Assembly (NCBI GenBank): GCA_947587615.1
Contig: CANPYC010000010.1
Span: 1 to 61,221 of the forward strand
Direction of reading: 5' to 3'
Origin: Candidatus Gastranaerophilales bacterium
GTDB lineage: Bacteria; Cyanobacteriota; Vampirovibrionia; Gastranaerophilales; Gastranaerophilaceae
Length of the DNA: 61,221 nucleotides
Part shown: positions 1,353-38,590 of the stretch, piece after piece
How positions within the stretch are numbered: position 1 is the stretch's first letter
Layout of the letters: each line of letters opens with the position of its first letter
Position numbers and translations under genes: made by a program
The notes under the pieces: generated by a model
What the model was told of the DNA's origin: nothing
Databases searched by the model: none
The model's input: only the letters and a program-made list of their open reading frames with translations

Positions 1353-1409
1353 ATTTATGATAAAATGTAGATTATTTTAACAAATTCAAAAGAAATGAAA
1401 AAGGTCTGT

Positions 1410-3287: not shown

Positions 3288-3290
3288 TAA

Positions 3291-3986
3291 ATGTCAAAAA
3301 AGAACAATAACAATACTTCTTTTGAAACATCTATGACAGATTTAATGATATCATTAGCCTTGATATTTATGTTATTGCTTGCTTCCGTAATGTTAAAAAT
3401 GAATAATCAGGCAAGTGAATTAACAAAAACCAGAAGTGAATTAATAGTTGAGCTGAGCGATATTCTAAACCAAATAAATCGCAGTGATATTGATGTAATG
3501 CCTGATGAAAGCGATCCTCTAACTCTTAAAGTTGTTTTAGGAGAAGGCGAGGACTCTTTAAAATTTGATACGGGAAAATATAACTTAACGCCTAAAAATA
3601 CAGCATTTCTTAATACGCTAATGCCTAAAATTATTTCAACTTTATATGATAAAAAATACAGAGACTCTATTGATACTATAAGAATAGAAGGTTATACGGA
3701 TGATGTTCCCTATATGGTAAACGGTAAAAATTATAATGTCGAATTAAGCCAGCAGCGTGCATTAGAAGTATTGAATTATACAAGAAAAAACATCTTAAAA
3801 AATGAAAATGAAAAAGAATTTTTTATTGAAAAAGCCTCTATTAATGGAAAAGGAGATATTGACAAATACTTGAAAAAGGATAAAAAAGACGGCTCGTGCA
3901 AAAAAGCAGAGTCTCGCCGTGTAGAAATAAAAATAAAAATCAGATCTAAAGACGAAGAAAATTTAAAAAAAGATATAAAACTTTAA
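3291..3986 (+). CDS. zorB: ZorB-like MotB/OmpA-domain stator protein (Zorya system)
   Basis: The 231-aa protein has a short N-terminus, one membrane helix (about residues 18-36) preceded by an aspartate (MTDLMISLALIFM, D17) at the place of the proton-carrying Asp of MotB/ExbD, and an OmpA-like peptidoglycan-binding domain with EGYTDD (133-138), NVELSQQRA and ESRRVEI (207-213). Known ZorB is a MotB-like subunit that pairs with ZorA, crosses the inner membrane and anchors to peptidoglycan. A purine-rich AAGGA in the 3' end of zorA is about 9 nt before the ATG. Translation is probably coupled to zorA. Length is close to the roughly 245 residues recalled for E. coli ZorB. A plain MotB is unlikely because of the neighbours. 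Confidence 0.85.
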   Translation: MSKKNNNNTSFETSMTDLMISLALIFMLLLASVMLKMNNQASELTKTRSELIVELSDILNQINRSDIDVMPDESDPLTLKVVLGEGEDSLKFDTGKYNLTPKNTAFLNTLMPKIISTLYDKKYRDSIDTIRIEGYTDDVPYMVNGKNYNVELSQQRALEVLNYTRKNILKNENEKEFFIEKASINGKGDIDKYLKKDKKDGSCKKAESRRVEIKIKIRSKDEENLKKDIKL

Positions 3987-3989
3987 ACT

Positions 3990-5546
3990 ATGCGCAGTGA
4001 TTATGAAAAAGTTAATAAAATAATTTCGTTTGAAAACATATTGCAAGAATTAGAAGAATTTAAATATGTTTCAAGTGCGGATGTTGATTATTTGATTAAA
4101 AATCCCATAAGTGTATACATAAGTGAAATATTACCTCTAAAAGTAAAAGATAATTTAAAGCAAAAAAAGATTACATCAATTATAAGAGCTTTTAACAATA
4201 GACATAGCGAGGATGACAGTCATTTTGAAAATATTGACAGAAATAGAATTAAAGAAATTCTAGATGAATTTGATATAAAACAAAACTTTTCATTCTTGGA
4301 TTTAAAATCAAGAGAAAGAAGATATTTGCTAAAATATAATGATTTGTGGATAGAGCATAAATACAACAATTATAAAAATCATTTTATTCGATATTTGCAA
4401 TCAAAAGATAAATTCTATAAGCACTTTAAACAAATATTACAATTATATATCAGAAAATACTCAACATTAAAAAATGATAACTCCTTTAAGAAACTGTTTA
4501 AAAGTATATATAAAAGTTATTCCGCAAATAAAAAATACATTCCGGAATTTATACAAAACATATTCAAGGATTGCGATATACCGGGTGAAAATGTTGAGAA
4601 GAAATTAGCAGAAATTTGTTTATTGGAAAAAACAAATACTCGAAAAAATATAGTAGATATAATATCAAACAGGTATAAATTCATAAAACCTCATACGGAT
4701 TTGTATAATGAAATAGTTGTTGTTATTTGTGATTTATGCAAAAAGAACATAAACAACGATTTTTATTTTAATTTATTATTTAATGAAATTTTAAATTCAG
4801 ATATTGAAAGCGACTATTCTGCAAAAATTGTAGGTAATATTATTGCCTTGTTTAGCTCAAAAAAGAATATTTCACAAACTGATTTAGACAGAATAAAGAT
4901 TGCACTGTTAAAAAATGACTACTATGGCGACCCTCGCTTAAACAAAATTACATCAAATTGGCATAAAGTTGATAAAAATGCAAAACACACATTTATAACC
5001 TGGTTGGCACAAGCAGATTTGGAATTTTTCTTTAAAACTGCTTTTAAAGGTGTATATGACCCTCACGGACGTAAAAAATTTTGGCAGCAATATATAAACA
5101 GTCATCAATTAGTTGAATCGCAAGTTATTTGGGGACAAAAATTCTATCAAACGGATGAAATACAACAGGAGCAAAAACGCAGCGGAATTCAATATAAAAG
5201 ATTTGTTTCAGAAGAAGAATGCAGCTGTTTTATATTAAAATTTAATAAAATTTATATTGTAGAATTTTCAGGCTATGGTAATGCTTTATACTTTTATAGC
5301 GATACAGAATTTAACAATAGAATTAACACTAAAAAATCTTATTATTATAAAGCGGATGATTTAAAGCGCAAAGGAAAATATACTAAGCAATTTTCAAAGC
5401 AAGATAACGGTAAAGTACCTGATTTATCATTTTGCGGTTCTTTTAACATATATCATTCGGGAGACCCCGGAACTTGGGAAAAATTAGCAGAAAGCGCACT
5501 GGGTGAATATGGTGTATTTAAAGGAGTAAATGATGGAGTTTATTAA
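3990..5546 (+). CDS. zorC: ZorC-like EH-signature protein (Zorya type I)
   Basis: The protein is 518 aa, Lys/Asn-rich and without membrane segments, so cytosolic. The C-terminal part (about 320-500) shows the pattern of the EH_Signature family: TFITWLAQADLEFFFKTAF, then GRKKFWQQY, then an isolated Glu in IVEFSGYGNALYFY (E425) and an isolated His in IYHSGDPGTWE (H489). Known: ZorC is the type I Zorya subunit that carries this domain and binds DNA, and mutation of its conserved Glu and His abolishes defence. The N-terminal 300 residues are divergent and unrecognisable to me. The gene begins 3 nt after the zorB stop with no clear ribosome site, which suggests translational coupling. The 3' end overlaps zorD. 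Presence of this gene instead of zorE places the system in type I. Confidence 0.75.
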   Translation: MRSDYEKVNKIISFENILQELEEFKYVSSADVDYLIKNPISVYISEILPLKVKDNLKQKKITSIIRAFNNRHSEDDSHFENIDRNRIKEILDEFDIKQNFSFLDLKSRERRYLLKYNDLWIEHKYNNYKNHFIRYLQSKDKFYKHFKQILQLYIRKYSTLKNDNSFKKLFKSIYKSYSANKKYIPEFIQNIFKDCDIPGENVEKKLAEICLLEKTNTRKNIVDIISNRYKFIKPHTDLYNEIVVVICDLCKKNINNDFYFNLLFNEILNSDIESDYSAKIVGNIIALFSSKKNISQTDLDRIKIALLKNDYYGDPRLNKITSNWHKVDKNAKHTFITWLAQADLEFFFKTAFKGVYDPHGRKKFWQQYINSHQLVESQVIWGQKFYQTDEIQQEQKRSGIQYKRFVSEEECSCFILKFNKIYIVEFSGYGNALYFYSDTEFNNRINTKKSYYYKADDLKRKGKYTKQFSKQDNGKVPDLSFCGSFNIYHSGDPGTWEKLAESALGEYGVFKGVNDGVY

Positions 5547-8500
5547 GAATAATTTTGAAATATTTTTTGATGAGGAAAATATAAGATATAAAAGTTTAAT
5601 ATATAACTCGGATTTTGATTATTTACAAAAAGCACCAATAAAAATATTTGAAACAAATTCTAAGATTTATAATTTTTTATTTGAAGCCCAGAACCTTATT
5701 AACAATGGAGATGCAACGGTTGAAAATGGGGAATTAACAGTTCCTGTCAAAAAATTTATAGAAAATATTAACGATGAAGATAGTAATTTTTGCTATAATA
5801 TGACACTTAAAAAACCTGTTTCTTTTAATTTAACAATAAAACATTGGGGTGCTATTGAATTTAATTCTTTTAAATTCAGCTACAAAATTGAAGATAAACA
5901 ATATAAAAATTGTAAGATAGTTGGTTGTTTTGCGCTTGAAGATAATGAATTTTATGTATTAGATAAACACTTATATTTTTTATTTAATGCAATGAAATCT
6001 GTTGAAAATATACCAAATGATGATAATAAAGAATATAATATATGGAAAGCAATTAATGATGTTAAAGAAGAGTCTGTTTTTAGCCACTCTGTTTTAAAAA
6101 GCTTTTTTAATAACGAAAAAATTATAATACCCGCAAATATGTCTGTTGATATTAAACAAACAGGTAATAACTTACAAGTTATTCCAACGCTAACAGGACT
6201 AACGGAAGAAGAACAAACGGCTTTTCAAGCAGAAATTAAATCTCGCTATATAGATGACACTTATTCGTTTAATATAAATGGTGAAACAATTAGAATAATA
6301 ATTTCTCCTAAAATTAAAGAGAATTTTAGCGCAATATTTAATATGCCAAGAGAAATAAGGAATAATGAAGCAAAAAGGACTATTGTAAAAAATCGTATCG
6401 GTTTTTTACCAAATAAAGACGTTGTTTCGCTGGATAATTTATCTGATAGAATTGTTGATTTTGGAATGTATAAAGCAAAAAGCGCCAGATTAGATACAAC
6501 AAGCAATGATTGGTGTTATCCTATAAAAATATCCGTATTTGATATTTCTCAAGAACAAATAATTTTTAAACTCAATGATAAATTAGAAATGGAAAAATTT
6601 AGAGAAATATTAGAGGAAGCAGTTGCAAATGAATATTCCTTTTTTGATTACACAACTGAACTTACTACAATTTCTATACCATTAACACCACAAAACTTTA
6701 AAGTATTAAAACAGTTTTTGACTGTTGATAGGAAAGAAACGGATAAAGAGGATACAAAAGATAAAATAATTGAGGAAGTTAAATTATTAACAAATGAAAA
6801 TAAGTATATTAAAATTAAAATAACAGAAGCATTATTTGAGGATTTAAAGGCGCAAGTTGCACAAATTAAAGAGTTTAATGCTGATAGTGACACAATTTTT
6901 AACTTGAATATATATGAAAATCAAATCCCGCTGAATGATTATAATAAACAGCAGTTAAGAAAAGTTTTTGAAATGCATATAATTTTAGCGCAGGAAGATA
7001 CTTTAAATGAAGATGACAATAGCCAAGTTAATGAATTTTTTTCTAACATAACACTTGAAATACCAAAAAGTTTAAAAAGAGAATTTAAACTTAAAAATTA
7101 TCAAAAGAAAGGGCTTGCTTGGCTGCAAAATTCTTTCAAAATGCGAGAAAGAGCTAAAAACGCTCGAAGCGGTGTACTTCTTGCGGATGATATGGGGCTT
7201 GGAAAAACCCTGCAAATACTTTCGTTTCTTTTTTGGTTATATGATAAGGATAAATATAGAGAAATTTATTTTAATGAAACTCATAAAAAACCTGTTTTGA
7301 TTGTTGCACCGGTTATTTTACTTGACAATTGGAGAAATGAATATAATAAATTCTTTTATGACAGTTTAGGTACTCCTTTAATTCTCCATGGAGACACTTT
7401 AAGAGGCTTAAAAACAAGACCGGGTAATGAATACTATCAATTTCAAATGTCAACTTGTAAGGCAGAATTGCACTTAGATACAAAGGAGATAGTAAAATCA
7501 AATGTTGTTATTACAAACTATGATACATTGGTAAATTATGAATTTTCCTTTGCAAGTATAGATTGGTCTATTGTTGTACTGGATGAAGCTCAAGAAATTA
7601 AAGAACGCTCTTCTCATAAATCAACGGTTGCAAAAGGACTAAAAACAGATTTTAAAATTGCATGCACAGGAACCCCCGTAGAAAATTCTTTAATGGATTT
7701 ATGGAATATTTTTAACTTTTTACAGCCTAATGTATTAGGAACAAGTATGGAATTTCGTTCTTTGTGTAAAAGTATGCAAGGTAGCGAAGATAATAGCAAC
7801 AACAAAGTATATAATGAAATAAGAGAAAAATTATACTATGAAAAACCTTATGCATATATTTTAAGAAGAGAAAAAAAGAATGTTTTAGGAGACTTACCTC
7901 CTAAAACGATTGAACCTAAATATGAAGTTCCTTTATCCGAAGAACAAATTGTTATATATGACAGATTAAAAAATAAAATGATGTTTGCTTCAACAGCAGA
8001 AGAAAAACTAAAAGCATTCTCGGATATGCATAAATTTTCCCAACATCCTAAAATGATAGATAATAAAGATACAGACTCTGTTGAAGAACTTATTTCAACA
8101 TGTCCGAAGTTCCAAAAATTAATCGAGATACTGCGAGGAATTGAGCTAAAAAGAGAAAAAGTTTTAATTTTTTGTAATTATAGAGAAATTCAACGGTATT
8201 TGAAATTGGTTCTTGAACATGAATTTAATATTGATAATATCGATATAATTAACGGAGAAGCTAAAAACAGACAATTTATTATAGATAAATTCCAAGAAGA
8301 TGAAAATACTTTTAAAATTTTAATATTGTCACCAAGAGCAGCAGGTGTCGGGCTTAATATTGTAAAAGCTAATCATGTAATTCATTACGGCAGATGGTGG
8401 AACCCTGCAAAAGAAAACCAGGCAACAGACAGGGCTTATAGAATCGGTCAGGAAAAAGAAGTGCATGTGTATTATTTAATTGATGTATATCCAAATCGCT

Positions 8501-8643
8501 GCGAGCAGACATTTGATGAAAAGCTGCATAATTTAATTATGAGAAAAATTGAAATTGCAAGTAATTTTCTTGTTCCAAATGACGAAAATATAAAAGAAGA
8601 GCTGATAAACTCGTTTGCAGGCCAGATAACATATAAACTCTAA
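5533..8643 (+). CDS. zorD: ZorD-like SNF2-family helicase (Zorya type I)
   Basis: The protein is about 1036 aa. Roughly the first 510 residues are a divergent N-terminal region. The C-terminal half is a SNF2 ATPase: Walker A DDMGLGKT (near residue 557), Walker B VVLDEAQEI (near 684), motif III CTGTPVENSLMDLWNIFNFL, and motifs V-VI with SPRAAGVGLNIVKANHVI and RWWNPAKENQATDRAYRIGQ. Known ZorD is the helicase/nuclease effector of type I Zorya, which degrades invading DNA once ZorAB is triggered. ATG 5533 is preferred to 5530 because AAGGAG ends 6 nt before it. It overlaps the end of zorC by 14 nt, consistent with one transcript. A free-standing SNF2 protein would look alike; the operon decides the call. 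Confidence 0.8.
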   Translation: MEFIKNNFEIFFDEENIRYKSLIYNSDFDYLQKAPIKIFETNSKIYNFLFEAQNLINNGDATVENGELTVPVKKFIENINDEDSNFCYNMTLKKPVSFNLTIKHWGAIEFNSFKFSYKIEDKQYKNCKIVGCFALEDNEFYVLDKHLYFLFNAMKSVENIPNDDNKEYNIWKAINDVKEESVFSHSVLKSFFNNEKIIIPANMSVDIKQTGNNLQVIPTLTGLTEEEQTAFQAEIKSRYIDDTYSFNINGETIRIIISPKIKENFSAIFNMPREIRNNEAKRTIVKNRIGFLPNKDVVSLDNLSDRIVDFGMYKAKSARLDTTSNDWCYPIKISVFDISQEQIIFKLNDKLEMEKFREILEEAVANEYSFFDYTTELTTISIPLTPQNFKVLKQFLTVDRKETDKEDTKDKIIEEVKLLTNENKYIKIKITEALFEDLKAQVAQIKEFNADSDTIFNLNIYENQIPLNDYNKQQLRKVFEMHIILAQEDTLNEDDNSQVNEFFSNITLEIPKSLKREFKLKNYQKKGLAWLQNSFKMRERAKNARSGVLLADDMGLGKTLQILSFLFWLYDKDKYREIYFNETHKKPVLIVAPVILLDNWRNEYNKFFYDSLGTPLILHGDTLRGLKTRPGNEYYQFQMSTCKAELHLDTKEIVKSNVVITNYDTLVNYEFSFASIDWSIVVLDEAQEIKERSSHKSTVAKGLKTDFKIACTGTPVENSLMDLWNIFNFLQPNVLGTSMEFRSLCKSMQGSEDNSNNKVYNEIREKLYYEKPYAYILRREKKNVLGDLPPKTIEPKYEVPLSEEQIVIYDRLKNKMMFASTAEEKLKAFSDMHKFSQHPKMIDNKDTDSVEELISTCPKFQKLIEILRGIELKREKVLIFCNYREIQRYLKLVLEHEFNIDNIDIINGEAKNRQFIIDKFQEDENTFKILILSPRAAGVGLNIVKANHVIHYGRWWNPAKENQATDRAYRIGQEKEVHVYYLIDVYPNRCEQTFDEKLHNLIMRKIEIASNFLVPNDENIKEELINSFAGQITYKL

Positions 8644-21756: not shown

Positions 21757-22866
21757 ATGGGTGAAAAAAAATTTAGTCTTGAGGAATTATCAAATATTGT
21801 GGGAGGTATTTTAACCAAAGCTCAAGATGTTGTTATAGATAAAGTTGCACCGCCAAAATTAGCTGATGAAAATACTTTAGCGCTTGCAATGAACGAAGAT
21901 GAAATTGAAAATATGTCAAGTTCTAAAGCTCGTGCTGTTTTAGTACCTTTAGGGGTTAATTTAGACGGCATTTCAACAATTGAAGTTGAAAGACCCAGAC
22001 TTGCTTTTATGAAATTATTAAACGTATTTTATATTGCACCCGATACACCAAGAGAAATCCATAAAACAGCAGTAATTGACCAAAGCGCAAAACTTGGTAA
22101 AAATGTTTCAATAGGAGCTAACGTCGTAATTTCAAAAGGTGTTGAAATTGGTGATAATACAGCCATTATGGCAAATTGCTATATAGGTAAAAACGCTAAA
22201 ATAGGTTCAGATTGCCTTCTTCATCCCGGGGTTAATATAGGCGACTTTGTAAAAGTAGGCTCCCGCTGCATTTTCCACCATGGGGTAAGTCTTGGAGCGG
22301 ACGGTTTTTCATTTGTAACGGAAAGCCCTAATAATATTGAGCAGGCAAGAGAACAAGGAGCAATTAAAGAAACAAATAAAAATGTTAAAGTGTTTAAAAT
22401 TCCTTCTCTAGGTTCCGTTTCAATAGGTGATGATGTTGAAATCGGCGCTAATACCACAATAGATAGAGGTACAATTGAAGATACAACAGTAGGTTCTCAA
22501 ACAAAAATTGATAACCTTGTCATGATTGGTCATAACTGCAAAATCGGAAATGCTTGTACAATTGTTTCTCAAGTAGGTATTGCGGGAAGCTGTACAATCG
22601 GTGACAGAGTGGTTATAGCAGGTCAAGCAGGCTTAAAAGACCATGTTGATATAGGCTCTGATTCAATTATCTTAGCAAAAGCGGGCGTTACAAAATCATT
22701 CCCCGCAAAATCCGTTATAATGGGCGCTCCTGCGGTACTTAGAAAAGATTTTATCAAGAGATTAAAATATCTTGATGAAGCTGAAGTAATGGTTCAAAAA
22801 TATAAAAAATATCAACATTTATTAGAAGATTATGAGAAATTTTTAAATGAAGACGCTAAAATCTAA
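21757..22866 (+). CDS. lpxD: UDP-3-O-acylglucosamine N-acyltransferase
   Basis: The 369-aa protein has an N-terminal LpxD-type domain followed by a left-handed beta helix built of hexapeptide repeats ([17 protein letters not shown] and similar) from about residue 110 to 320. The [14 protein letters not shown] block holds the catalytic His of LpxD, and the C-terminus is helical. LpxD adds the second 3-hydroxyacyl chain (amide-linked) to UDP-glucosamine in lipid A synthesis, taking it from acyl-ACP. It is first in an lpxD-lpxC-fabZ-lpxA run. The lpxC ATG lies 20 nt inside its 3' end, so the two are translationally coupled. Confidence 0.95.
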
Positions 22867-23668
22867 CTTAAAATTAAACGGTGCGGGGCTAATGTTTGCA
22901 GCCCCCGTTGAACTTGAAATAAAACCATCGGACAAAAAAGGTATTCGCTTTCATATTGCACAAGGTATTGTTGAAGCGAAAATTGAAAACGTTGTTTCAA
23001 CTGAACATTGCGTAATTATAGCTGATGTTGATGAGGGTGCCAAAAGAAAAATCGCCCTTATAGAACATTTTATGGCTGCATGCGCAATCTGTGGTATTGA
23101 AGCGCTGGATGTTTATTTTTCTTCTCAAGGTTTTGAAATGCCGATATTTGACGGCAGTGCCAAAGTTTGGGTTGAAAAATTTAGAGAAGTCGGTTTTTCG
23201 GGTGTTGAAGAAGAAATAAAACCCTTAGATGAAGTAATTACATTTGAAAAAGATAATTCAGCAATAATTCTTGCTCCATCAAAAAATGATACAACAATAA
23301 CTTATGCGGTTAACTTCCGCCACGTTGACTTAGCCAACAGATGGGTAAATTTATCGTTAAATGATAATATAAATGAAATAATAGAAGCAAGAACGTTTGG
23401 TTATTTATCAGACCTTGAAAAATTCCAAAAAGCAGGTTATTCAAAAGGTGTTACCCTTGAAAATACCGTAGGTTTAACAGATGATGGCTATACGGTTGAA
23501 TTAAGGAGTAAGTTTGAGCCTGCAAAGCATAAAATTCTTGATATAATAGGCGACTTATATTTAACAGGCTATAACCCGCTTAAATTAAAAGCAAATATTA
23601 TCGTTAAAGAAGCAGGGCATGCTCTGCATTGCGAAGTTGCTAAATTATTAAAAGCAAAACTAAAGTAA
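22847..23668 (+). CDS. lpxC: UDP-3-O-acyl-N-acetylglucosamine deacetylase
   Basis: The 273-aa zinc hydrolase shows LpxC landmarks: [18 protein letters not shown] (catalytic Glu and zinc His), [26 protein letters not shown], the block [16 protein letters not shown] with the HxxxD zinc pair, and a C-terminal [12 protein letters not shown] with the general-acid His. It is a little shorter than the roughly 300 residues of E. coli LpxC. It removes the acetyl group from UDP-3-O-acyl-GlcNAc, the committed step of lipid A synthesis. It overlaps lpxD by 20 nt and precedes fabZ by 21 nt, as in the cyanobacterial-type lpx cluster. Confidence 0.95.
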
Positions 23669-23689
23669 AAGACAAAAGAGGAGATAAAA

Positions 23690-24136
23690 ATGGATACAAC
23701 AGTAAAACCAATTACGCTTGATTATAGCGAAATATTAGAAATGTTACCGCACAGATATCCGTTTTTATTGGTGGATAGAATAACGGAATGTGTCCCCGGG
23801 TCGTATTCAAAAGGTTATAAGAATGTAAGTTTCAATGAACCTTTCTTTCAAGGGCATTTTCCTAACAATCCGATTATGCCGGGGGTTTTACAAATTGAAG
23901 CATTAGCTCAAACATCCGCTCCAATTCTTATGACAATGGAACAGTATAAAGGTAAATTAACTCTTTTTGCAGGTGTTGAAAGTGCAAAATTTAAAAATAT
24001 AGTTCGCCCGGGCGACAAGCTTGAAATGGAAACAGAGTGTATCAAAGTTAAAGGTCCGATTGCAAAATGCATGGGGCGCTCTTATGTTGATGGCAAGCTA
24101 TGTACGGAAGCAATTTTAACCGTAGCATTAAAATAA
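23690..24136 (+). CDS. fabZ: 3-hydroxyacyl-ACP dehydratase FabZ
   Basis: This 148-aa hot-dog fold protein contains LPHRYPFLLVDRI, the active-site GHFPNNPIMPGVLQIEALAQ with catalytic His and Glu, and AGVESAKFKNIVRPGDKLEM. It dehydrates 3-hydroxyacyl-ACP in fatty acid elongation and so competes with LpxA/LpxD for the same substrate, which explains its place inside the lpx operon. A GAGGAG ribosome site lies before the ATG. Length is normal. Confidence 0.97.
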   Translation: MDTTVKPITLDYSEILEMLPHRYPFLLVDRITECVPGSYSKGYKNVSFNEPFFQGHFPNNPIMPGVLQIEALAQTSAPILMTMEQYKGKLTLFAGVESAKFKNIVRPGDKLEMETECIKVKGPIAKCMGRSYVDGKLCTEAILTVALK

Positions 24137-24170
24137 AAGGAATATTCTATTTTTAAAAAAGGAAGTATAG

Positions 24171-25010
24171 ATGATAACAACAAATAAAATTCATAAAACA
24201 GCGCTTATTGATGAAACTGCAAAAATCGGTGAAAATGTTGAAATAGGAGCATACGCAGTTATTGGAGCGGATGTTGTAATTGAGAACGGCTGTAAAATCG
24301 GCGATAGCGCAAATATCCAATACGCTCATATCGGTAAAAATACGAGAATTTCTCCTTTTGCTTCAATTGGAGGTGAACCGCAAGACCTTGGTTATAAAAA
24401 CGAAAAAACAGGTGTTATAATAGGGCAAAATTGTTGGATTAGAGAATTTGCAACAATAAATAGAGCCTCAGGCGAAGGTACAAATACAATTATAGGAAAC
24501 AATTGCATGATAATGGCTTATGCCCATGTTGCTCATAATTGCGTGCTTGGTGATAACGTTATTATGGCAAACGCTGCAACAATAGGCGGACATTGTCATG
24601 TCGGTAACGGTGCTTTTTTAGGCGGAATGAGCGTATTTCATCAAAACGTTAGAATTGGTGATATGGCTATTATTTCAGGCGCTTCCGCAGCCCGCTTGGA
24701 TATAATTCCTTATTGCAAAGCTGAAGGCATGCCTTGTCTTCCTATCGGTTTAAATGCAATCGGATTAAGAAGAAAAGGGGTAGATAAAGAGTCACGTGAC
24801 GCTATTCATAAAGCAATCAGAATTTTAAGAAACGAAAAATATAACACAACTCAAGCCCTTGAATTAATTGAAGAAGAATTTAAAGGCAACAAATATATTG
24901 ATAATCTTGTTGAATTTGTGAGAACTTCAAAAAGAGGCTGTACTCTAAGAGATAAAGAAGCCTATCACGGTACATTAGATGATGATGAATTCAAAGAAAG
25001 TGATGATTAA
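24171..25010 (+). CDS. lpxA: acyl-ACP--UDP-N-acetylglucosamine O-acyltransferase
   Basis: The 279-aa protein has hexapeptide repeats over the first about 190 residues (IHKTALIDETAKIGENVEIG onward). The LpxA block IGGEPQDLGYKNEKTGVIIG, the catalytic-His region MIMAYAHVAHNCVLGDN and the helical tail GLNAIGLRRKG are all present. It transfers a 3-hydroxyacyl chain to the 3-OH of UDP-GlcNAc, the first step of lipid A synthesis in the cytosol. The C-terminus is slightly longer than in E. coli. Its stop overlaps the ATG of the next gene by one base. lpxB is not adjacent and would have to be elsewhere. Confidence 0.96.
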   Translation: MITTNKIHKTALIDETAKIGENVEIGAYAVIGADVVIENGCKIGDSANIQYAHIGKNTRISPFASIGGEPQDLGYKNEKTGVIIGQNCWIREFATINRASGEGTNTIIGNNCMIMAYAHVAHNCVLGDNVIMANAATIGGHCHVGNGAFLGGMSVFHQNVRIGDMAIISGASAARLDIIPYCKAEGMPCLPIGLNAIGLRRKGVDKESRDAIHKAIRILRNEKYNTTQALELIEEEFKGNKYIDNLVEFVRTSKRGCTLRDKEAYHGTLDDDEFKESDD

Positions 25011-28463: not shown

Positions 28464-31400
28464 ATGTACATAAAAGAAATTGAAATAGACAATTTTAAAT
28501 CTTTTGCAAATAAAATCACCGTTCCATTCCTTAAAGGCTTTACTGCAATTTCAGGGCCAAACGGCTCAGGAAAAAGTAATATTATAGATAGTGTCTTATT
28601 TGCGCTCGGTTTATCAACCGCAAGAGCTCTGCGCTCGGAACAAGGCGCTGCCGATTTAATTACAAACCATAATAAACGTGGGGAAGCAAGCGTTAAAGTT
28701 ACTTTTGGAATGGATAACGAAGAAGAAATTTCAATAAAAAGATATATTAAAAAAGCAAAAAACGGTATTCAATCAAACTATTATTTTAACGATAGACCTG
28801 CAACCCTGACTCAAATTCATATGGAATTAGAAAAATATAATATTTCTCCAAACAGTTATAATATTATGATGCAAGGCGATGTTACAGAGATTACCAAGTG
28901 TTCTGCGATTGAAAGAAGAAAAATACTTGATGAAATAGCAGGTACTGCCGATTTTGACAGAAAAATTGCTCTTGCAAGCGAGCAAATTCAAAGTGTTGAA
29001 GATAGAGTTAATAATACAAATATTTTAATTAATGAAATCGATTCTCAAATTGAGCAATTAAAGCAAGAAAGAGAAGTTGCCCTAAAATATAATGAATATA
29101 AAAAAGAAAAAACAGAGCTTGAAAATAAAATTCAAGCTGCAAAATATTTTGATACAAAAAGAGCACTGGAGCTTGTTCATCAAAATATCCTAAACGCTTC
29201 AAAAGAAAAAAAAGAGCTAAATGAAAGATTAAAAGAATTTGAGTCAAAAATTCAAGATTTAAAATTAAAATATGATGAAATAAATACTGCCGTAAAAGCG
29301 CAAGGAGAAGAAAAACAGCTTGAAGTTAAAAAAACGGCTGAAGAAAAAAAAGGTGAAATTGAAAGAAAGAAAAGCGCAATAGCTCAAAGCGAAAAAACCG
29401 CTCTTGATAACTTAAAAACAATTGAAAGCTATAAAAACGGTATTGAAGTTCAAAAACAAAAAATCGTTGAATTTGAAAATGCCATTAAAGAAAAAAATAA
29501 ACAGCTTGAAAAACTGGAAGCCGATTTAAAAAATAAAAAAGATGAGCTCGATAAAATCATCTTAGAGATGACGGGGCTTAATAAATCCGCCGATGAACAT
29601 ATCCAAAACAGAAATAAAATAAGAAAAGAGCTTGATGAGCTCAACGACAGTGAAACTCAAATAATAAAAGAACAACTGCCAAAAGAAGCTGACTATAAAA
29701 ATAATGAAGAAAAAATTGCTCAAACAAAAGAACAAATTACAAAGCTTCAAAATGCGCTTAAAAACTTTACTGATGAAAAAGATAAATTAAATCTTCAAAT
29801 TGAAACACTTCAAAAAGAAGTTGAAGAATGTAAAATAATTCAAACAAAAACATTTGAAGAGCTTGATTCAACAAGTGCCAAAAAAGATGATACATATTTT
29901 AAATTAAACCAAGCTCAAAAAAGAATAGCGATTTTAGAAGCAAATAAAAATGCTTATAAATCGGTCGGCATGGGTGCAGGGGTTGAAGCGGTTATGAGAG
30001 CCGGTTTTGAGGGGGTTCATCAACCTTTGGCACAATTAGCCGATGTTGAAGCGGATTACTCCGAAGCCATATCAACGGCAATGGGTTCACGTGCTTTTTC
30101 AATTGTTGTTGATAGTCAAGATGTTGCATATAATGCCATAAGACACCTAAGGTCACTGGGGCGTGATAGAGCCTCATTTATACCTCTTGATATTATAAAT
30201 AAAGCGCCAAAAAAAATGGCACTTCCAAAAGAAAAAGGGGTAATTGATTTTGCAATTAATTTAATAGATTTTGATGACAAATATCTTGACGCTTTTTATT
30301 TTGCGCTTGGTGAAACAGTTGTTGTTGAAGATGAAAACTGTGCTAAAAAACTTGCAAGAAAATATAGAGTTGTAACGCTTGATGGAGATATAACGGAAAA
30401 AAGCGGGCTTATAACGGGCGGAGCTAAAAAAAGAAGTACATCATTTTTTGATAAAACACAGGAGCGTGAACTTGAAAAACATAAAAAACTTTTATCACAA
30501 CTTGAAAAAGAGTTGGCAGAATTATCTCAAAAAGAAAAAGATTTAAAAAGAAGAAATGAAGAAACAAGACAACTCTATAGCACCTCTTTAAGCGCTTTAA
30601 ACGGAGCTAAAATCGAGCTTAAAAATTTAATATCAAATAATGAAAATTCATCTAAAGTAATCGAAGAAAGTGAAATTCAGCTTAAAGAACTTAAAGAAAA
30701 AAATTCAAAACTATCTAAAGAGCTTGATTTAATTGAAGGAAAAAGAATAAAACTTCAGGATAAAATTCTATCTAAACAAGAGGAATTAAAAGAAGTAGAA
30801 AAATTAATTGATGAAGGCGAACTAAAAAAATTAAGGGAAAAAACGCAATCTAAAGAAGATGAAATTAAAAATATCGAAAAAGAAATAATGATAACTCAAA
30901 ATGAGATTGAAAAAGACGAAAACCAAATAAAATTCCAACAAACTCAAATCTCAATTCGAGAAAACGATATTAAAAAGCTGACATCCGATAACATCCTTCT
31001 AAAAGAAGATAAAGAGCGCTTTCAAGATGAAATTAAAGAAGTTGAAAAAGTCTTAGCTGAGCTTGAAATTGAAATAAAAGAGCTTGGAAAAAATCTTGTA
31101 GAACTGCAAGAAAAAAGGGATAAAATTCAAGAAGAATTATTAAGCGAAAAAACCTTAAAAAATAAAGCTCAAGATGACCTAGAGCGCTTAGCAGAACAGG
31201 AAGAAAGCTATAGGGCAAGAAGGCGGGAATTAGAGCCGATTTTAGAAAATATTGTAAAAGAATTTAATGAGGCAAATATAAAAATAGAAAGTCTTGAAAA
31301 ATCGGATATATCGCTTGATGAAATAAATTCTAAAATTGCAAAGCTCCAAAAGAAAATGGAAGCGCTTGAGCCTGTTAATATGAGAGCGCTTACCGCCTAT

Positions 31401-31961
31401 GATGAAACAATGGAGCGCCAGCTTGGCTACAAGGAAAAAGTAGCGACTCTGGAAAATGAAAAAAATGAAATTAAAACAAGGATGAACGGCTATCAAGGGC
31501 TTAAAAAAGAAACGTTTTTAGAAGCATATCATGCGATTAATAAAAACTTTAAAGAAGTTTTTGCTCAAATATCTGAAGGCGAAGGTTCGCTTTTGCTTGA
31601 AAATGAAAAAGACCCGTTTTCAGGAGGGCTTACGTTTGTTGCTAATATTAGAGATAAGAAAAATCAAAAACTTGCCGGCATGTCGGGTGGCGAGAAATCT
31701 TTAACGGCATTAGCTTTTGTATTTGCTATTCAAAAATATATGCCTTCTCCTTTTTATGCTTTTGATGAAGTTGATATGCACTTAGATGGGCCAAACGTTG
31801 AAAGACTTTCAAATATAATAACAAATCAATCAAAAACAGCGCAGTTTATTGTTGTATCTTTAAGAAAACCAATGCTTGATAATGCAGACAGGCTGATTGG
31901 CGTAACTCAAAAAAATAAAGGTGTTACAAAAGTTTTGGGAGTAGCGGGTAAAGATGAATAA
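28464..31961 (+). CDS. smc: chromosome segregation ATPase SMC
   Basis: The 1165-aa protein has the SMC plan: N-terminal Walker A GPNGSGKSNIIDSVLFALGL, a long coiled coil, a hinge around residues 500-640 (GVEAVMRAGFEGVHQPLAQL), a return coiled coil, and a C-terminal head with the signature LAGMSGGEKSLTALAF and Walker B PSPFYAFDEVDMHLDGPN. SMC dimers with ScpA and ScpB extrude DNA loops to organise and separate the chromosome. No good ribosome site is obvious before the ATG. The gene overlaps scpA by 8 nt. Confidence 0.97.
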   Translation: MYIKEIEIDNFKSFANKITVPFLKGFTAISGPNGSGKSNIIDSVLFALGLSTARALRSEQGAADLITNHNKRGEASVKVTFGMDNEEEISIKRYIKKAKNGIQSNYYFNDRPATLTQIHMELEKYNISPNSYNIMMQGDVTEITKCSAIERRKILDEIAGTADFDRKIALASEQIQSVEDRVNNTNILINEIDSQIEQLKQEREVALKYNEYKKEKTELENKIQAAKYFDTKRALELVHQNILNASKEKKELNERLKEFESKIQDLKLKYDEINTAVKAQGEEKQLEVKKTAEEKKGEIERKKSAIAQSEKTALDNLKTIESYKNGIEVQKQKIVEFENAIKEKNKQLEKLEADLKNKKDELDKIILEMTGLNKSADEHIQNRNKIRKELDELNDSETQIIKEQLPKEADYKNNEEKIAQTKEQITKLQNALKNFTDEKDKLNLQIETLQKEVEECKIIQTKTFEELDSTSAKKDDTYFKLNQAQKRIAILEANKNAYKSVGMGAGVEAVMRAGFEGVHQPLAQLADVEADYSEAISTAMGSRAFSIVVDSQDVAYNAIRHLRSLGRDRASFIPLDIINKAPKKMALPKEKGVIDFAINLIDFDDKYLDAFYFALGETVVVEDENCAKKLARKYRVVTLDGDITEKSGLITGGAKKRSTSFFDKTQERELEKHKKLLSQLEKELAELSQKEKDLKRRNEETRQLYSTSLSALNGAKIELKNLISNNENSSKVIEESEIQLKELKEKNSKLSKELDLIEGKRIKLQDKILSKQEELKEVEKLIDEGELKKLREKTQSKEDEIKNIEKEIMITQNEIEKDENQIKFQQTQISIRENDIKKLTSDNILLKEDKERFQDEIKEVEKVLAELEIEIKELGKNLVELQEKRDKIQEELLSEKTLKNKAQDDLERLAEQEESYRARRRELEPILENIVKEFNEANIKIESLEKSDISLDEINSKIAKLQKKMEALEPVNMRALTAYDETMERQLGYKEKVATLENEKNEIKTRMNGYQGLKKETFLEAYHAINKNFKEVFAQISEGEGSLLLENEKDPFSGGLTFVANIRDKKNQKLAGMSGGEKSLTALAFVFAIQKYMPSPFYAFDEVDMHLDGPNVERLSNIITNQSKTAQFIVVSLRKPMLDNADRLIGVTQKNKGVTKVLGVAGKDE

Positions 31962-32841
31962 TACAAACGCTATAAATGATTTTTATACCCACAACCCTAA
32001 AGTTTTGGAAGAAATCCAAGTGTTGGATGCTACCGTTGATTTTAGCGCAAATGTTGAATTTGTATCAAAATCGGGCATGAAAAAAAATGTCCAAACAGAC
32101 GCTATTGAAATTATTTTAGATTTAGTTAAACTTGGAAAAATTGACCCTTGGAATATTGATATTGTTGACTTATACGATAAATATATGGAGCGAATTAAGG
32201 AGCTGAAGCTTGAAAACCTTCGCTCTGTCGGAAAAGCGCTTTTATTTTCTTCAACTTTGTTAAAAATTAAATCAGATATCTTGCAGGGAATATCGATTAA
32301 CGATTTTATGCCTGAACCGTTGGATTATTTTGAAGATGATTATATGTCGGATGATGTTGAACAAATGCAAATACCTTCAAATAACGTCATATCTTTTGAT
32401 GAAGTGTTGCAGAGAAGAACATCTGTTCGCTTAAATCGAAAAAGAACGGTAACCTTGAAAGATTTAATCCGCCATATTCAATTTTATGAAGATTTAGAAA
32501 AAAAATATGCAATTAAAAACGCACTTGATAGAAAAGAAAGACGTGTTCGCAACTATTCAAAATTAAAAACGGAAGAAATTAAAGAACTTGCGCATGAAGA
32601 ATATGTTGAAGAAGTAGTTGAGCGTATGCGCCAGAATTTAGCTCAAATTTTATCAAGAGAAGAAAATATTGAACTGAGAGAGCTTTGTTTATTGGGGTTT
32701 GATAAAAGCTCCGCTTTTATTGCACTTTTGTTTTTAGCAAGAAGCGGCGAATATGATATTTTTCAAAAAGAATTTTATGGGAAACTCTATGCGACAAAAG
32801 CAAATTCTATAAAAGACAGTAAGGAAGACGAGGAAAGCTGA
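31954..32841 (+). CDS. scpA: segregation and condensation protein A (kleisin)
   Basis: The 295-aa protein carries the ScpA N-terminal block AIEIILDLVKLGKIDPWNIDI, followed by YDKYMERIKEL and a helical C-terminal winged-helix domain ending in CLLGFDKSSAFIALLFLARSG. ScpA is the kleisin that bridges the SMC heads and binds ScpB. It overlaps smc at its start and shares its last base with the ATG of scpB, so all three subunits of the condensin complex are made from one coupled transcript. It has a roughly 40-residue N-terminal extension before the conserved domain. Confidence 0.95.
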   Translation: MNNTNAINDFYTHNPKVLEEIQVLDATVDFSANVEFVSKSGMKKNVQTDAIEIILDLVKLGKIDPWNIDIVDLYDKYMERIKELKLENLRSVGKALLFSSTLLKIKSDILQGISINDFMPEPLDYFEDDYMSDDVEQMQIPSNNVISFDEVLQRRTSVRLNRKRTVTLKDLIRHIQFYEDLEKKYAIKNALDRKERRVRNYSKLKTEEIKELAHEEYVEEVVERMRQNLAQILSREENIELRELCLLGFDKSSAFIALLFLARSGEYDIFQKEFYGKLYATKANSIKDSKEDEES

Positions 32842-33353
32842 TGGAAGTTGAAGAGCTAAAATCTAAAATTGAAGCGGTTTTATTTATAACTTCTAAAGCT
32901 ATGCAGCCAAGTGAAATTGCGCAGATTTTAGAAGTTGATGTTGAGGGAGTTGAGCAGGCACTTTTAGACTTGATGTTTGACTATTCATCTCGCAACGGTG
33001 CGCTTGAAATTGATGACGAGGATGGTTATATTATTCAGGTTAAAGCAGAACACATGGATATTGTTGAAAAGCTCTGTCCTGTTGAATTAAAACCGGCAGT
33101 CTTAAAAACACTTACCGTTATTGCTCTTAAAGAACCTATAAGGCAATCATATCTAAAAGAAATTCGCCCGAGTGCCTATGAACATATTGCGGAATTATTG
33201 GAGCAAGGGCTGATTTCAAAAACCAAAGATAAAAACGGAAGAAGTTTTAATTTAAGGACAACAAAAAAGTTTCAGGAGTATTTTAAACTCAAGGGCGATA
33301 TTAAAGCTCTTGTTCAAAGGCTTGATACTACTGAGGATTTAAAAAATCTGTAG
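32841..33353 (+). CDS. scpB: segregation and condensation protein B
   Basis: The 170-aa protein has two winged-helix units: LKSKIEAVLFITSKAMQPSEIAQIL at the start and PAVLKTLTVIALKEPIRQSYLKEIRPSAYEHI in the middle, followed by LLEQGLISKT, all typical of ScpB. Dimers bind the ScpA linker in the SMC complex. The C-terminus is short. It overlaps scpA by one base (TGATG), and its TAG stop directly abuts the ATG of the ribonucleotide-reductase-like gene. Confidence 0.95.
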   Translation: MEVEELKSKIEAVLFITSKAMQPSEIAQILEVDVEGVEQALLDLMFDYSSRNGALEIDDEDGYIIQVKAEHMDIVEKLCPVELKPAVLKTLTVIALKEPIRQSYLKEIRPSAYEHIAELLEQGLISKTKDKNGRSFNLRTTKKFQEYFKLKGDIKALVQRLDTTEDLKNL

Positions 33354-34637
33354 ATGATAATTAATTCAATTAACAATATTTCTAAAATTCAACAAGGCTA
33401 TATACAAAAACCGGTATATGCTATGCCTTATGATAGTTATAGCGTTGAAAATCCAAATATTGATAAGAAAGTTTTAATTGAAAAAGATATAATTGATAAA
33501 AATACAAATATAAATGAATTTTTTAGCAAAATTTCAAAAAGTATTTTTGGCGCTTCAAATATGACTCATCCTTTTGAAAAACTGCTTCAATTGGGTTATG
33601 TCAGCCTTTCAAGTTCAATGTATTCAAATTTATCTAATCCGAAAAGCGCAATCGGGCTTGAATTAGACCCTAAAAAAACTCCGATACAAAATTGTGCAAA
33701 ATTAGAAGAATACATAAAAGACGGAATTGGTATAGGTGTTAACTTTAGCAAGTTTCAAAACCCGATATCTCAAATAAAACAAATAAATTCTTATTTTTGT
33801 TTCAGGCAAAATACAACTAAAAGACCCCCCGCAGGAATTGCCCTATTAAACATAAATCACCCGAAAATCCTTGATTTTATTGCTCTAAAAGATAATAGGG
33901 ATTATAAAAATTGGTGTTTTGATTTATCCGTTGTTGTTGATGACGAGTTTTTTTCAAAACTTCAAAATAACGATGATATAGAGCTTTCTGACGGGTCAAA
34001 ACTTAATTCAAGAGTAATTTATAATAAACTTTTGTTTTCAATGTTAAAATCAGGCGAACCGGGAATAATTTTTTCAAATAAAAAAGACTACACTTGCGAT
34101 TGCTGTGCTGCAAGCGAGCTAAAACCAAACGAAGGATTAACCTTAGCGCATATAAATCTTTCTAAATTCTATAACCCCAAAACAAATTCGCTTGATTATT
34201 CTTTTTTGGATAACGCTTCAAATACCTTGTCTTGTGCGCTAAAGCTTGTTGAAAAAGACGGTTTTATTGGTGTTGTCGGCTATCAGGAGCTTTTAGACAA
34301 GCTAAATCTTAAATACGGATCTGATGAAGCAATTAAAACTCTTGAAAATTGTCTTAAAATAATTCAAAAACAAGCAAAAAACAAAGATTTAAAACTTGCA
34401 ATCTCTCCGACAGGGACAATTTCAAGACTTCTTAAAACAACACCTTCAATTGAACCTAAAACCAATCAGGATATAACATATTATCAGGAACTTGATACAA
34501 TGGCTGCCGCTCAAAAGTATCTTGATGGCGGAATATCCAAAACAATTAAATTAAAAGACGGCTATACAACAAATGATATTGATAAAATTGTAAGATATGC
34601 CAAACAAAAAGGCATAAAAGGGCTAAGCGTTTTTTAA
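33354..34637 (+). CDS. small, divergent ribonucleotide reductase large-subunit-like protein, probably not a normal RNR
   Basis: The 427-aa protein aligns by eye with class II (NrdJ-type) RNR blocks: RPPAGIALLNINHPKILDFI matches the usual RRGA..hL...HPDI..FI, GEPGIIFSNK matches GEPGI.F.., LAHINLSKF matches LG.INLSKF and SPTGTISRLLKTTPSIEP matches APTGTIS....TS.GIEP. It is much shorter than a full NrdJ (700 or more) and lacks an ATP cone. In the finger-loop region, where RNRs have NPCGE, I read DCCAA: the Cys could remain, but the catalytic Asn and Glu are replaced, so normal reduction of ribonucleotides is doubtful. The ATG abuts the scpB stop, so it is probably made with the condensin genes. 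Role unknown. Confidence 0.6.
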   Translation: MIINSINNISKIQQGYIQKPVYAMPYDSYSVENPNIDKKVLIEKDIIDKNTNINEFFSKISKSIFGASNMTHPFEKLLQLGYVSLSSSMYSNLSNPKSAIGLELDPKKTPIQNCAKLEEYIKDGIGIGVNFSKFQNPISQIKQINSYFCFRQNTTKRPPAGIALLNINHPKILDFIALKDNRDYKNWCFDLSVVVDDEFFSKLQNNDDIELSDGSKLNSRVIYNKLLFSMLKSGEPGIIFSNKKDYTCDCCAASELKPNEGLTLAHINLSKFYNPKTNSLDYSFLDNASNTLSCALKLVEKDGFIGVVGYQELLDKLNLKYGSDEAIKTLENCLKIIQKQAKNKDLKLAISPTGTISRLLKTTPSIEPKTNQDITYYQELDTMAAAQKYLDGGISKTIKLKDGYTTNDIDKIVRYAKQKGIKGLSVF

Positions 34638-36038: not shown

Positions 36039-36722
36039 GTGCCCTTAAGATATCTTTTTATTATAATTATTCTGTTTTTCTTAAATAACACGGTTTTTGC
36101 CGCTGAAACCGTTAATAATTTTGACGATTTTAATAAAGCCCTAACTGAAGAGGGTACAAATGCCGAAGTTAGTATTGAAAGCGACTTAAAGGCAAGCTGC
36201 GATTTAGGATGTCAGGGAAAAGACGACCTAAAAATCTACGGGAATAATCATACGCTTGATGGCGCTAATCAACAAGGGATAATTGTTGAACAAAATAAAA
36301 ATTTAACCGTTGAAAATCTTGAAATTGAAAACTTTAAATCTTCAAGTGGCGGAGCTCTTATGAGCGAGGAGAGTTCTTCTGTTGATATTAAAGATGTGAC
36401 TTTTAAAAATAATGAAGCAACTGAAGGTGATGGCGGGGCTTTTTGTAATCATTGTCAGGTTAAAGATTTAACGGGGGAATTTAGCGAAAACTCCGCCTAT
36501 CATAACGGAGGAGCTATTTGTAATCAACAGGAAGGTAATATCGAAAATCTGGAAGGCACTTTTGAAAATAATACAGCTAAAGAAGGTTTTGGAGGGGCGG
36601 TTTTTAACTTTGGCTCAATTGGTAATATTAAAGCGGATTTTTTAAATAATAGCGTAGAAGAATATTATGGCGGTGCAATAGCTAATATGAAAGTAATAGG
36701 AAGTATTCAGGGGAATTTTTAA
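36039..36722 (+). CDS. N-terminal part of a POMP-repeat autotransporter, frame broken at 3' end
   Basis: It starts at GTG 36039 with AAAAGAG upstream. The N-terminus PLRYLFIIIILFFLNNTVFA is a signal peptide. The rest is a beta-helix passenger with repeated units of the polymorphic outer-membrane protein type: GGALMS, NNEATEGDGGAF, EFSENSAYHNGGAICN, FENNTAKEGFGGAVFN, FLNNSVEEYYGGAI. The frame ends at TAA 36720-36722 inside one such unit (GNF). Shifting by -1 there reads on as FLNNSAYLMGGAIYNEG into the next frame, so this and 36740-38590 are one gene separated by a one-base change. See that entry for the barrel. Confidence 0.75.
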   Translation: MPLRYLFIIIILFFLNNTVFAAETVNNFDDFNKALTEEGTNAEVSIESDLKASCDLGCQGKDDLKIYGNNHTLDGANQQGIIVEQNKNLTVENLEIENFKSSSGGALMSEESSSVDIKDVTFKNNEATEGDGGAFCNHCQVKDLTGEFSENSAYHNGGAICNQQEGNIENLEGTFENNTAKEGFGGAVFNFGSIGNIKADFLNNSVEEYYGGAIANMKVIGSIQGNF

Positions 36723-36739
36723 ATAACAGTGCATATTTA

Positions 36740-38590
36740 ATGGGAGGAGCTATTTATAATGAAGGTGTGATAAGCTCAATTGCGGGCAATTTTGAAAACA
36801 ACACCTCTGTTTTAGGCGGAGGTGCAATTATGAATTACGGGGAAGTTCGCTCTCTTGAAGGGAGTTTTTTAAATAATTCGACACAAGTAAGAGGAGGTGC
36901 TATTTATAACGGTTTTAACGGTGTTATTAATATTAAAGCAAATAATGATGATGTAATCTTTAGAGGTAACAGCGATTCAACAGGCTCTAACGCTATTTAT
37001 AATGAAGCTGTTGTTAATATGAACCCGATAAACCATAATATTATTTTTGATGATAAAATAGATGGTTACAGTACTCAAAGCTCAACAATAAATATTAATT
37101 CAGACTCTCAAGACTCCAAGGTTGTTTTTAATAATGAAGTTTCAAATAATACGGTTAATTTAAGACACGGGGTTTTGGAATTTGGTAAAAGCGAGTTTGA
37201 TGGAGTAGAGAACTTCGGTAATTTTTCAAACAGCGTTAATTTTAATTATTACGATGGTACAATAAGCCTTCAAAACGGAAATATTCAAAACACAAATTTA
37301 GGTAATTTGGAACTTTTTTCAGATATGGATTTAAAGCTTGAAGGCGATTTTGAAAATTTAAAACTTGATACTTTTACGCTTGACTCTTTTAAAAGTAACG
37401 ATCACAAAATTAATATTTCAAACATACTTTTACTCTCTCCCACAACTCTAAAAAGTTTTTCTCTAAGTCCTATCGGTAGTATTTCAGATAGCGAGCTTTT
37501 TAACTCTTTAAAAAATTCAATTGAATATAGTGGAGGGGATGTTGTCTATTCTCCGATTTTTAAATATATTACAACTTATGACCCGAATACGGGCATGTTG
37601 AATTTTATACAGCCCGAATATGATAATTTTAACCCTGCAATTTTATTAAGTCCGATTGCAGCTCAAATTGGAGGATATTTACATCTTAGCCGCTCTTATC
37701 AGGAGGCATTTAGGAATATGGATATGTATTATCTTTTAGAAAAAAATCAAAGATTAAATTTAAAATATCCTTCCCGTTATGCTTCTGAAGTCTTAACAGG
37801 AGGGGTTAAGGGGTATTATAATAAAAGACATGTTTGGTTTAGACCTTATTCGATATTTGAAAATGTGCCTTTAAAAAATGCCTTTAGAGTTAACAACAAG
37901 GCTTATGGAGCGTTTTTTGGAGCGGAATTTGAACCCGTTAAATTAAGACGCAAATTTAACTTTATTTTTGCGCCCTATTTTTCTTATAACGGTTCTCATC
38001 AAACTTTTAAACAAACAAACGGAATTTATCAAAACGGAGGTTTAGCAGGGATTGTCGGCTACATCTATAAAAACAATTTTTTTATGGGGTTAACGGCGTT
38101 ATCGGGTGCTAACGGTTGTCAGGGTAATACAATGTATGGCAGTGAAGATTTTTCAATGTTTTTAGCGGGAGCTGCCATGAAAGCCGGATATAATTTTGAT
38201 ATTAAAGAAAAAGCCATAATTCAGCCTAATTTTTTAATTTCTTATTCATTTGTTCAGACATTTGATTATAAAACAGCAAGCAATGTTGATATTAAAACTC
38301 ATCCCTTAAATGCTGTTCAAATAGCTCCGGGGGTAAAATTTATCGGGAATTTTAAAAATAATTTTCAGCCTTATATATGTGTAAATATGTTTTGGAATAT
38401 TTTGGATAAAACAAAATTTAGAGCTAATGATGTTGCGCTTCCATATTTAAGCATAAAACCCTTTGTCTTATACGGAGCAGGTTTTAGAAAAATTATTAAA
38501 GAAAGGTTTGAATATTATTTTCAAGCACTTGTTGCAAACGGAGGAATAAACGGTGTCGGGCTATATGCAGGGCTTAGGTATGAGCTTTAA
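36740..38590 (+). CDS. C-terminal part of the POMP-repeat autotransporter with beta-barrel domain
   Basis: The 616-aa frame has no signal peptide and begins mid-passenger (GGAIYNEGVISSIAGNFENN), continuing the repeats of 36039-36722. Residues 100-310 are a further beta-rich passenger. The last about 280 residues form an autotransporter barrel (VWFRPYSIFENVPLKN, AYGAFFGAEF, an alternating-residue pattern and a final aromatic/charged strand ending GLYAGLRYEL). The whole protein would be about 848 aa: surface passenger plus barrel. The break sits at a T5 run (GGGAATTTTTAAAT); with six Ts the frame is continuous. It could be a sequencing slip, a pseudogene, phase variation or -1 slippage. The internal ATG 36740 alone would make a protein without export signal. 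Confidence 0.75.
   Translation: MGGAIYNEGVISSIAGNFENNTSVLGGGAIMNYGEVRSLEGSFLNNSTQVRGGAIYNGFNGVINIKANNDDVIFRGNSDSTGSNAIYNEAVVNMNPINHNIIFDDKIDGYSTQSSTININSDSQDSKVVFNNEVSNNTVNLRHGVLEFGKSEFDGVENFGNFSNSVNFNYYDGTISLQNGNIQNTNLGNLELFSDMDLKLEGDFENLKLDTFTLDSFKSNDHKINISNILLLSPTTLKSFSLSPIGSISDSELFNSLKNSIEYSGGDVVYSPIFKYITTYDPNTGMLNFIQPEYDNFNPAILLSPIAAQIGGYLHLSRSYQEAFRNMDMYYLLEKNQRLNLKYPSRYASEVLTGGVKGYYNKRHVWFRPYSIFENVPLKNAFRVNNKAYGAFFGAEFEPVKLRRKFNFIFAPYFSYNGSHQTFKQTNGIYQNGGLAGIVGYIYKNNFFMGLTALSGANGCQGNTMYGSEDFSMFLAGAAMKAGYNFDIKEKAIIQPNFLISYSFVQTFDYKTASNVDIKTHPLNAVQIAPGVKFIGNFKNNFQPYICVNMFWNILDKTKFRANDVALPYLSIKPFVLYGAGFRKIIKERFEYYFQALVANGGINGVGLYAGLRYEL

Follow-up and report, generated by a model that had tools for sequence, protein, structure and literature searches.

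A candidate pseudoenzyme derived from class II ribonucleotide reductase is encoded behind scpB in a genus of Gastranaerophilales

The smc-scpAB locus and its last gene

The window, a 61,221-nucleotide stretch of a Candidatus Gastranaerophilales contig (CANPYC010000010.1), carries smc (28464–31961), scpA (31954–32841) and scpB (32841–33353) in this order on the forward strand, followed on the same strand by a last gene (33354–34637) encoding a 427-aa protein that is recognised from ORF, domain, profile and model evidence as NrdJ-like and is here considered a putative pseudoenzyme. Its ATG lies on the base right after the scpB stop at 33353, and the ORF coordinates bear out a reading made earlier from the sequence only that had placed the two genes in immediate succession. 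Scans for promoters and terminators around the NrdJ-like gene returned matches at or below shuffled expectation. About the first 35 residues of the protein (33354–33458, +) form a tail that is variable in alignments of the genus proteins. Unrelated proteins elsewhere (L157:3548–4255; L141:676–1026 and 6767–7720) have an MKI...F(K/N)G-like leader resembling this variable N-terminus, and the leader was set aside as a family-wide signal, since 4 of 283 ORFs are too few to judge.

Other parts of the window hold further genes of interest. Upstream of smc (22847–25007, +), ORFs resemble the lipid A genes lpxC, fabZ and lpxA. At 36039–38590 (+), ORFs of 227 and 616 aa share a continuing GGAI repeat of a surface or autotransporter-like protein, with a frame shift near a T run at about 36715–36720 that could be due to phase variation, to a genuine break or to an error in the assembly. 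Four adjacent genes at 1395–8640 (+) match the ZorA, ZorB, ZorC and ZorD models and together look like a complete Zorya anti-phage system of type I. The NrdJ-like protein itself gave no match in PADLOC, and a role as a defence gene was set aside. An origin from phage was likewise rejected, as the best phage matches share about 20–25% identity, are to ordinary RNRs and form no closer group.

Relationship to class II ribonucleotide reductases

The 427-aa protein is a relative of class II RNR (NrdJ), with homology far beyond chance. For example, the Pfam barrel domain PF02867 matches at 1.8e-25, and profile–profile comparison with NrdJ from related genomes aligned 395 columns at an E value of 1e-32. 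The NrdJ_Z model also matches (E 5.5e-34), but at 117.7 bits this falls below its curated cut-off of 399.95. An AlphaFold2 model built from the 26 genus sequences is confident (pLDDT 88.8, pTM 0.85), with residues 1–30 alone disordered (pLDDT under 50), and the overlay on NrdJ that the sequence-only reading had proposed gave a Z score of 34.6 and an rmsd of 2.2 over 391 residues to the Thermotoga maritima enzyme (3O0O). The structural match to class Id subunits is similar. Pfam, the model and the structure comparison agree on the barrel domain and fold of a class II RNR, and the features shared with NrdJ (TIGR02504; T. maritima 1XJE/3O0O) comprise the 10-stranded barrel, the radical cysteine, the phosphate loop and the loop 2 arginine. 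The last but one of these corresponds to the SPTGTIS loop (residues 351–357; 34404–34424, +), which we take to be the substrate phosphate loop of RNRs and which is mostly retained. The blocks HPKILDFI, GEPGIIF, INLSKF and SPTGTIS, singled out from the sequence beforehand, were all found in the translation, and the Pfam domain search confirmed that an ATP cone is absent. The glycyl radical domains PF13597 and PF01228 had no match in the protein, setting it apart from class III (NrdD). Its shortness had also been remarked upon; the length stands but is not diagnostic by itself, as the mean length of class O RNR subunits is 412 aa (PMC9531940).

Catalytic positions were mapped by aligning the 26 genus proteins with NrdJ from relatives, including L037, and from T. 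maritima. For the latter, we take the catalytic residues to be C134 (the first reducing cysteine), N320, C322, E324 and C333, of which the last four agree with the alignment obtained here. The finger loop of the window protein (residues 248–253; 34095–34112, +) reads CDCCAA, versus TNPCGE in NrdJ. The catalytic Asn is replaced by Asp (D249) in all 26 genus proteins, the Glu at position 253 by Ala in 23 (A253 in the window) and by Thr in three, and the loop follows the consensus DXC(A/G)(A/T) throughout, where NrdJ has NPCXE. Only the radical cysteine (C251) is retained, both in the 26 proteins and in L098 and L099, two relatives from outside the genus described below. The proposed change from NPCGE to DCCAA was thus right about the loss of Asn and Glu, but the radical cysteine survives within the loop and both reducing cysteines are additionally lost. 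At the first of these (L037 C97), all 26 proteins have Ala99 (33648–33650, +), and at the second (L037 C291; T. maritima C333), residue 262 (34137–34139, +) is Leu in 23, including the window protein, and Phe in three. A conserved metal site formed by CDCC is unsupported, as C248 and C250 vary among the genus proteins. Cys188 (33915–33917, +), within WCFDLSV, is invariant across the genus and has no counterpart residue in NrdJ.

The protein is further reduced relative to NrdJ by the loss of loop 1, insertions and the C-terminal thiols. Specifically, 14 residues are missing at specificity loop 1 (L037 135–148) and 62 at the C-terminal end, which in NrdJ forms the redox-active tail with its cysteines, while other deletions remove 11 residues near the N-terminus, 11 before the finger loop, and then 17, 56 and 61. 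Surveys of the RNR family describe NXCXE as common to classes O, I and II, and place the cysteine pair used by classes I and II on strands A and F of the barrel (PMC9669993); neither is found in the genus protein. Because the Asn, the Glu, the reducing cysteines, loop 1 and the thiol tail have been replaced or deleted, canonical ribonucleotide reduction appears very unlikely, judging from these residues.

Distribution, selection and deoxynucleotide supply

Homologues were found in 26 of the 28 sampled genomes of the genus and are missing from two species (G015 and G027). In all 26 carriers, scpB lies directly upstream, its stop and the start codon of the NrdJ-like gene being −4 to +6 nt apart, so the pairing anticipated from the window alone recurs throughout. 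Further upstream, scpA precedes scpB at the carrier loci (truncated by the contig end at L015). A convergent ATP-grasp gene follows in 18 of the 25 loci with longer flanks, while the downstream neighbour in the window has no Pfam match. Because the downstream gene is also kept at these 18 loci, local gene order is conserved generally in the genus. G015 and G027 keep scpAB, with no remnants of the NrdJ-like gene found behind scpB in either, and in G015 scpB faces the ATP-grasp gene at 12 nt. The ScpAB tree groups G015 with G000 and G022 (support 90/97, not a starred branch), suggesting loss in the G015 lineage, while G027 was not firmly placed. At least one loss of the gene is probable.

Outside the genus, the scan of the family and order recovered only L098 (348 aa, from G166) and L099 (562 aa, from G290), and the close relatives found by genome scanning were all from Gastranaerophilales, Cyanobacteria-labelled or uncultured MAGs. 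Both proteins form one clade with the genus family (support 100/99), though the tree, with its long branches, gave no firm position of this clade among the NrdJ of the order. As in the genus family, the catalytic Asn and the reducing cysteines are missing; in contrast, both have Ser where the genus has D249, and the Glu is kept in L099 or replaced by Asp in L098. Neither gene has scpB nearby. G166 carries an adenosyltransferase and G290 a further normal-looking NrdJ match. The G290 protein (L099:1435–3120), which reads STCAEMGL at the finger loop and occurs beside further NrdJ matches, is possibly an intermediate.

Within the genus, dN/dS of the NrdJ-like gene in close pairs is 0.11–0.23 (NG86), values that are estimates since dS approaches saturation in several of the pairs. 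On this basis, the gene appears to be under purifying selection and not a decaying relic, and a pseudogene is ruled out. The ORF is open in all 26 genomes, ruling out a frame error or chimera, and the protein has 43 invariant columns, with C251, D249 and C188 unchanged in 26 of 26 although overall identity to the window protein is about 44–60%. Fixation within the genus is more frequent at columns that NrdJ keeps invariant, whether or not the residue itself has changed (61 of 203, versus 21 of 195 other columns; Fisher p 2e-6, treating columns as independent and partly mirroring conservation of the fold core).

The gene had been taken for a paralogue, but this is wrong for the window's genome, where neither a second PF02867 protein nor a normal NrdJ was found. 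The search for a full-length RNR elsewhere in that genome instead recovered an intact NrdD, with ATP cone, MGCR finger loop and RMNGY glycyl site, followed by NrdG. NrdD was detected in 27 of the 28 genus genomes, and deoxynucleotides presumably come from class III NrdD/NrdG. Corrinoid adenosyltransferases were found in none of the genus genomes searched (PF02572, 0 of 27; PF01923, 0 of 26), the window's host included, whereas PF02572 is present in 16 of the 17 relatives from the order and in 92 of the 126 family genomes. NrdJ and PF02572 mostly co-occur in the family, with exceptions that include G039 (NrdJ only) and G049, G065, G081, G087 and G155 (PF02572 only), some of these assemblies being incomplete. 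By gene content, the adenosylcobalamin supply that NrdJ depends on appears to be missing from the genus genomes searched, though import of the ready-made cofactor is possible.

Possible functions of a non-reducing NrdJ derivative

The genus protein probably descends from NrdJ but has ceased to reduce ribonucleotides, making it a pseudoenzyme specific to this genus. Loss of RNR chemistry followed by repurposing appears well supported by the catalytic replacements in 26 of 26 proteins, the failure to find an adenosyltransferase and the purifying selection. A NrdJ copy may have lost its reductive chemistry, perhaps once NrdD alone supplied deoxynucleotides, and been retained for binding. Because elements of the pocket are retained, a nucleotide or similar ligand may still occupy it, and such a ligand is probably bound without being reduced. 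The protein would then act by binding, as a sensor, buffer or partner, at a dose set by read-through from smc-scpAB. Counting against this reading, the pocket retains invariant, potentially reactive residues (C251, D249, C188, N268, R157 and S357) for which a mere scaffold would have no need. The closest functional precedent is the betaherpesvirus R1 homologues (HCMV UL45 and MCMV M45), which have lost catalysis and taken on a role in signalling (PMC5469499) and show that such a fate is possible. Like the genus protein, these are homologues of an RNR large subunit that have been kept and repurposed with most catalytic residues gone, and the same combination of lost catalytic residues and persisting selection is found here. 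In contrast, they are viral, derive from class I and target host RIP1 signalling; the comparison is by analogy and not by descent.

The main rival to a binding pseudoenzyme is an enzyme with new chemistry, in which C251 would act together with the newly acquired acid D249, and possibly C188, on a substrate resembling a nucleotide and without cobalamin. That these residues are invariant despite the divergence of the proteins, and that the fixed new residues occupy former catalytic positions, is consistent with such an enzyme. However, no cofactor or reductant partner was recognised nearby, C248 and C250 vary, and the relatives in G166 and G290 have Ser at D249, making a new reaction rather unlikely.

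A role with SMC-ScpAB is possible on the basis of gene order. The sequence-only reading had envisaged that the protein might sense nucleotides or play a structural part in condensing the chromosome. Of this, the link to scpB in every carrier and the repurposing stand, and a component or regulator of the complex that senses nucleotide supply would fit a gene placed right behind scpB. However, in the same pairs the NrdJ-like gene evolves about five times faster than scpA and scpB (dN/dS 0.11–0.18 versus 0.01–0.03), two species have intact scpAB and no NrdJ-like gene, L098 and L099 are not beside scpB, and the downstream gene is syntenic as well, so such a partner is improbable. Still a little less probable is the fuller proposal that a former RNR became, in one bacterial genus, a nucleotide-sensing condensin partner coupling deoxynucleotide/ribonucleotide supply to chromosome compaction.

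A decaying relic without function might account for the two genus members lacking the gene and for its faster evolution relative to its neighbours, but is very improbable given the open frames, the dN/dS values and the invariant columns. Least credible is the idea that the protein remains a working minimal RNR, drawing on a different radical source and reductant. The retained radical cysteine, phosphate loop and barrel could speak for it, as could the equally short class O enzymes, likewise without an ATP cone, but against it stand the altered finger loop, the missing reducing cysteines and thiol tail, the adenosyltransferase that was not found and the presence of NrdD. Class O RNRs also differ in having NVCLE at the finger loop (DCCAA in the window protein), a C-terminal double Cys, loop 1 and an adjacent ferritin-like gene (PMC9531940). 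The genus protein has none of the first three, and no ferritin-like partner was recognised in the downstream gene, which has no Pfam match in the window and mostly encodes an ATP-grasp protein at other loci.

The NrdJ-like gene is real, conserved and unusual. Literature searches turned up no report of an inactive NrdJ spread across a whole bacterial genus and nothing relevant on the RNRs of Gastranaerophilales or Melainabacteria. Few chemistries in biology are as conserved as that of RNRs, and a non-reducing NrdJ derivative, if real, would offer a traceable path from essential enzyme to pseudoenzyme, via the loss of NrdJ and of adenosylcobalamin synthesis, with G166 and G290 perhaps holding intermediates, as well as a test case for the RNR fold as a nucleotide sensor.
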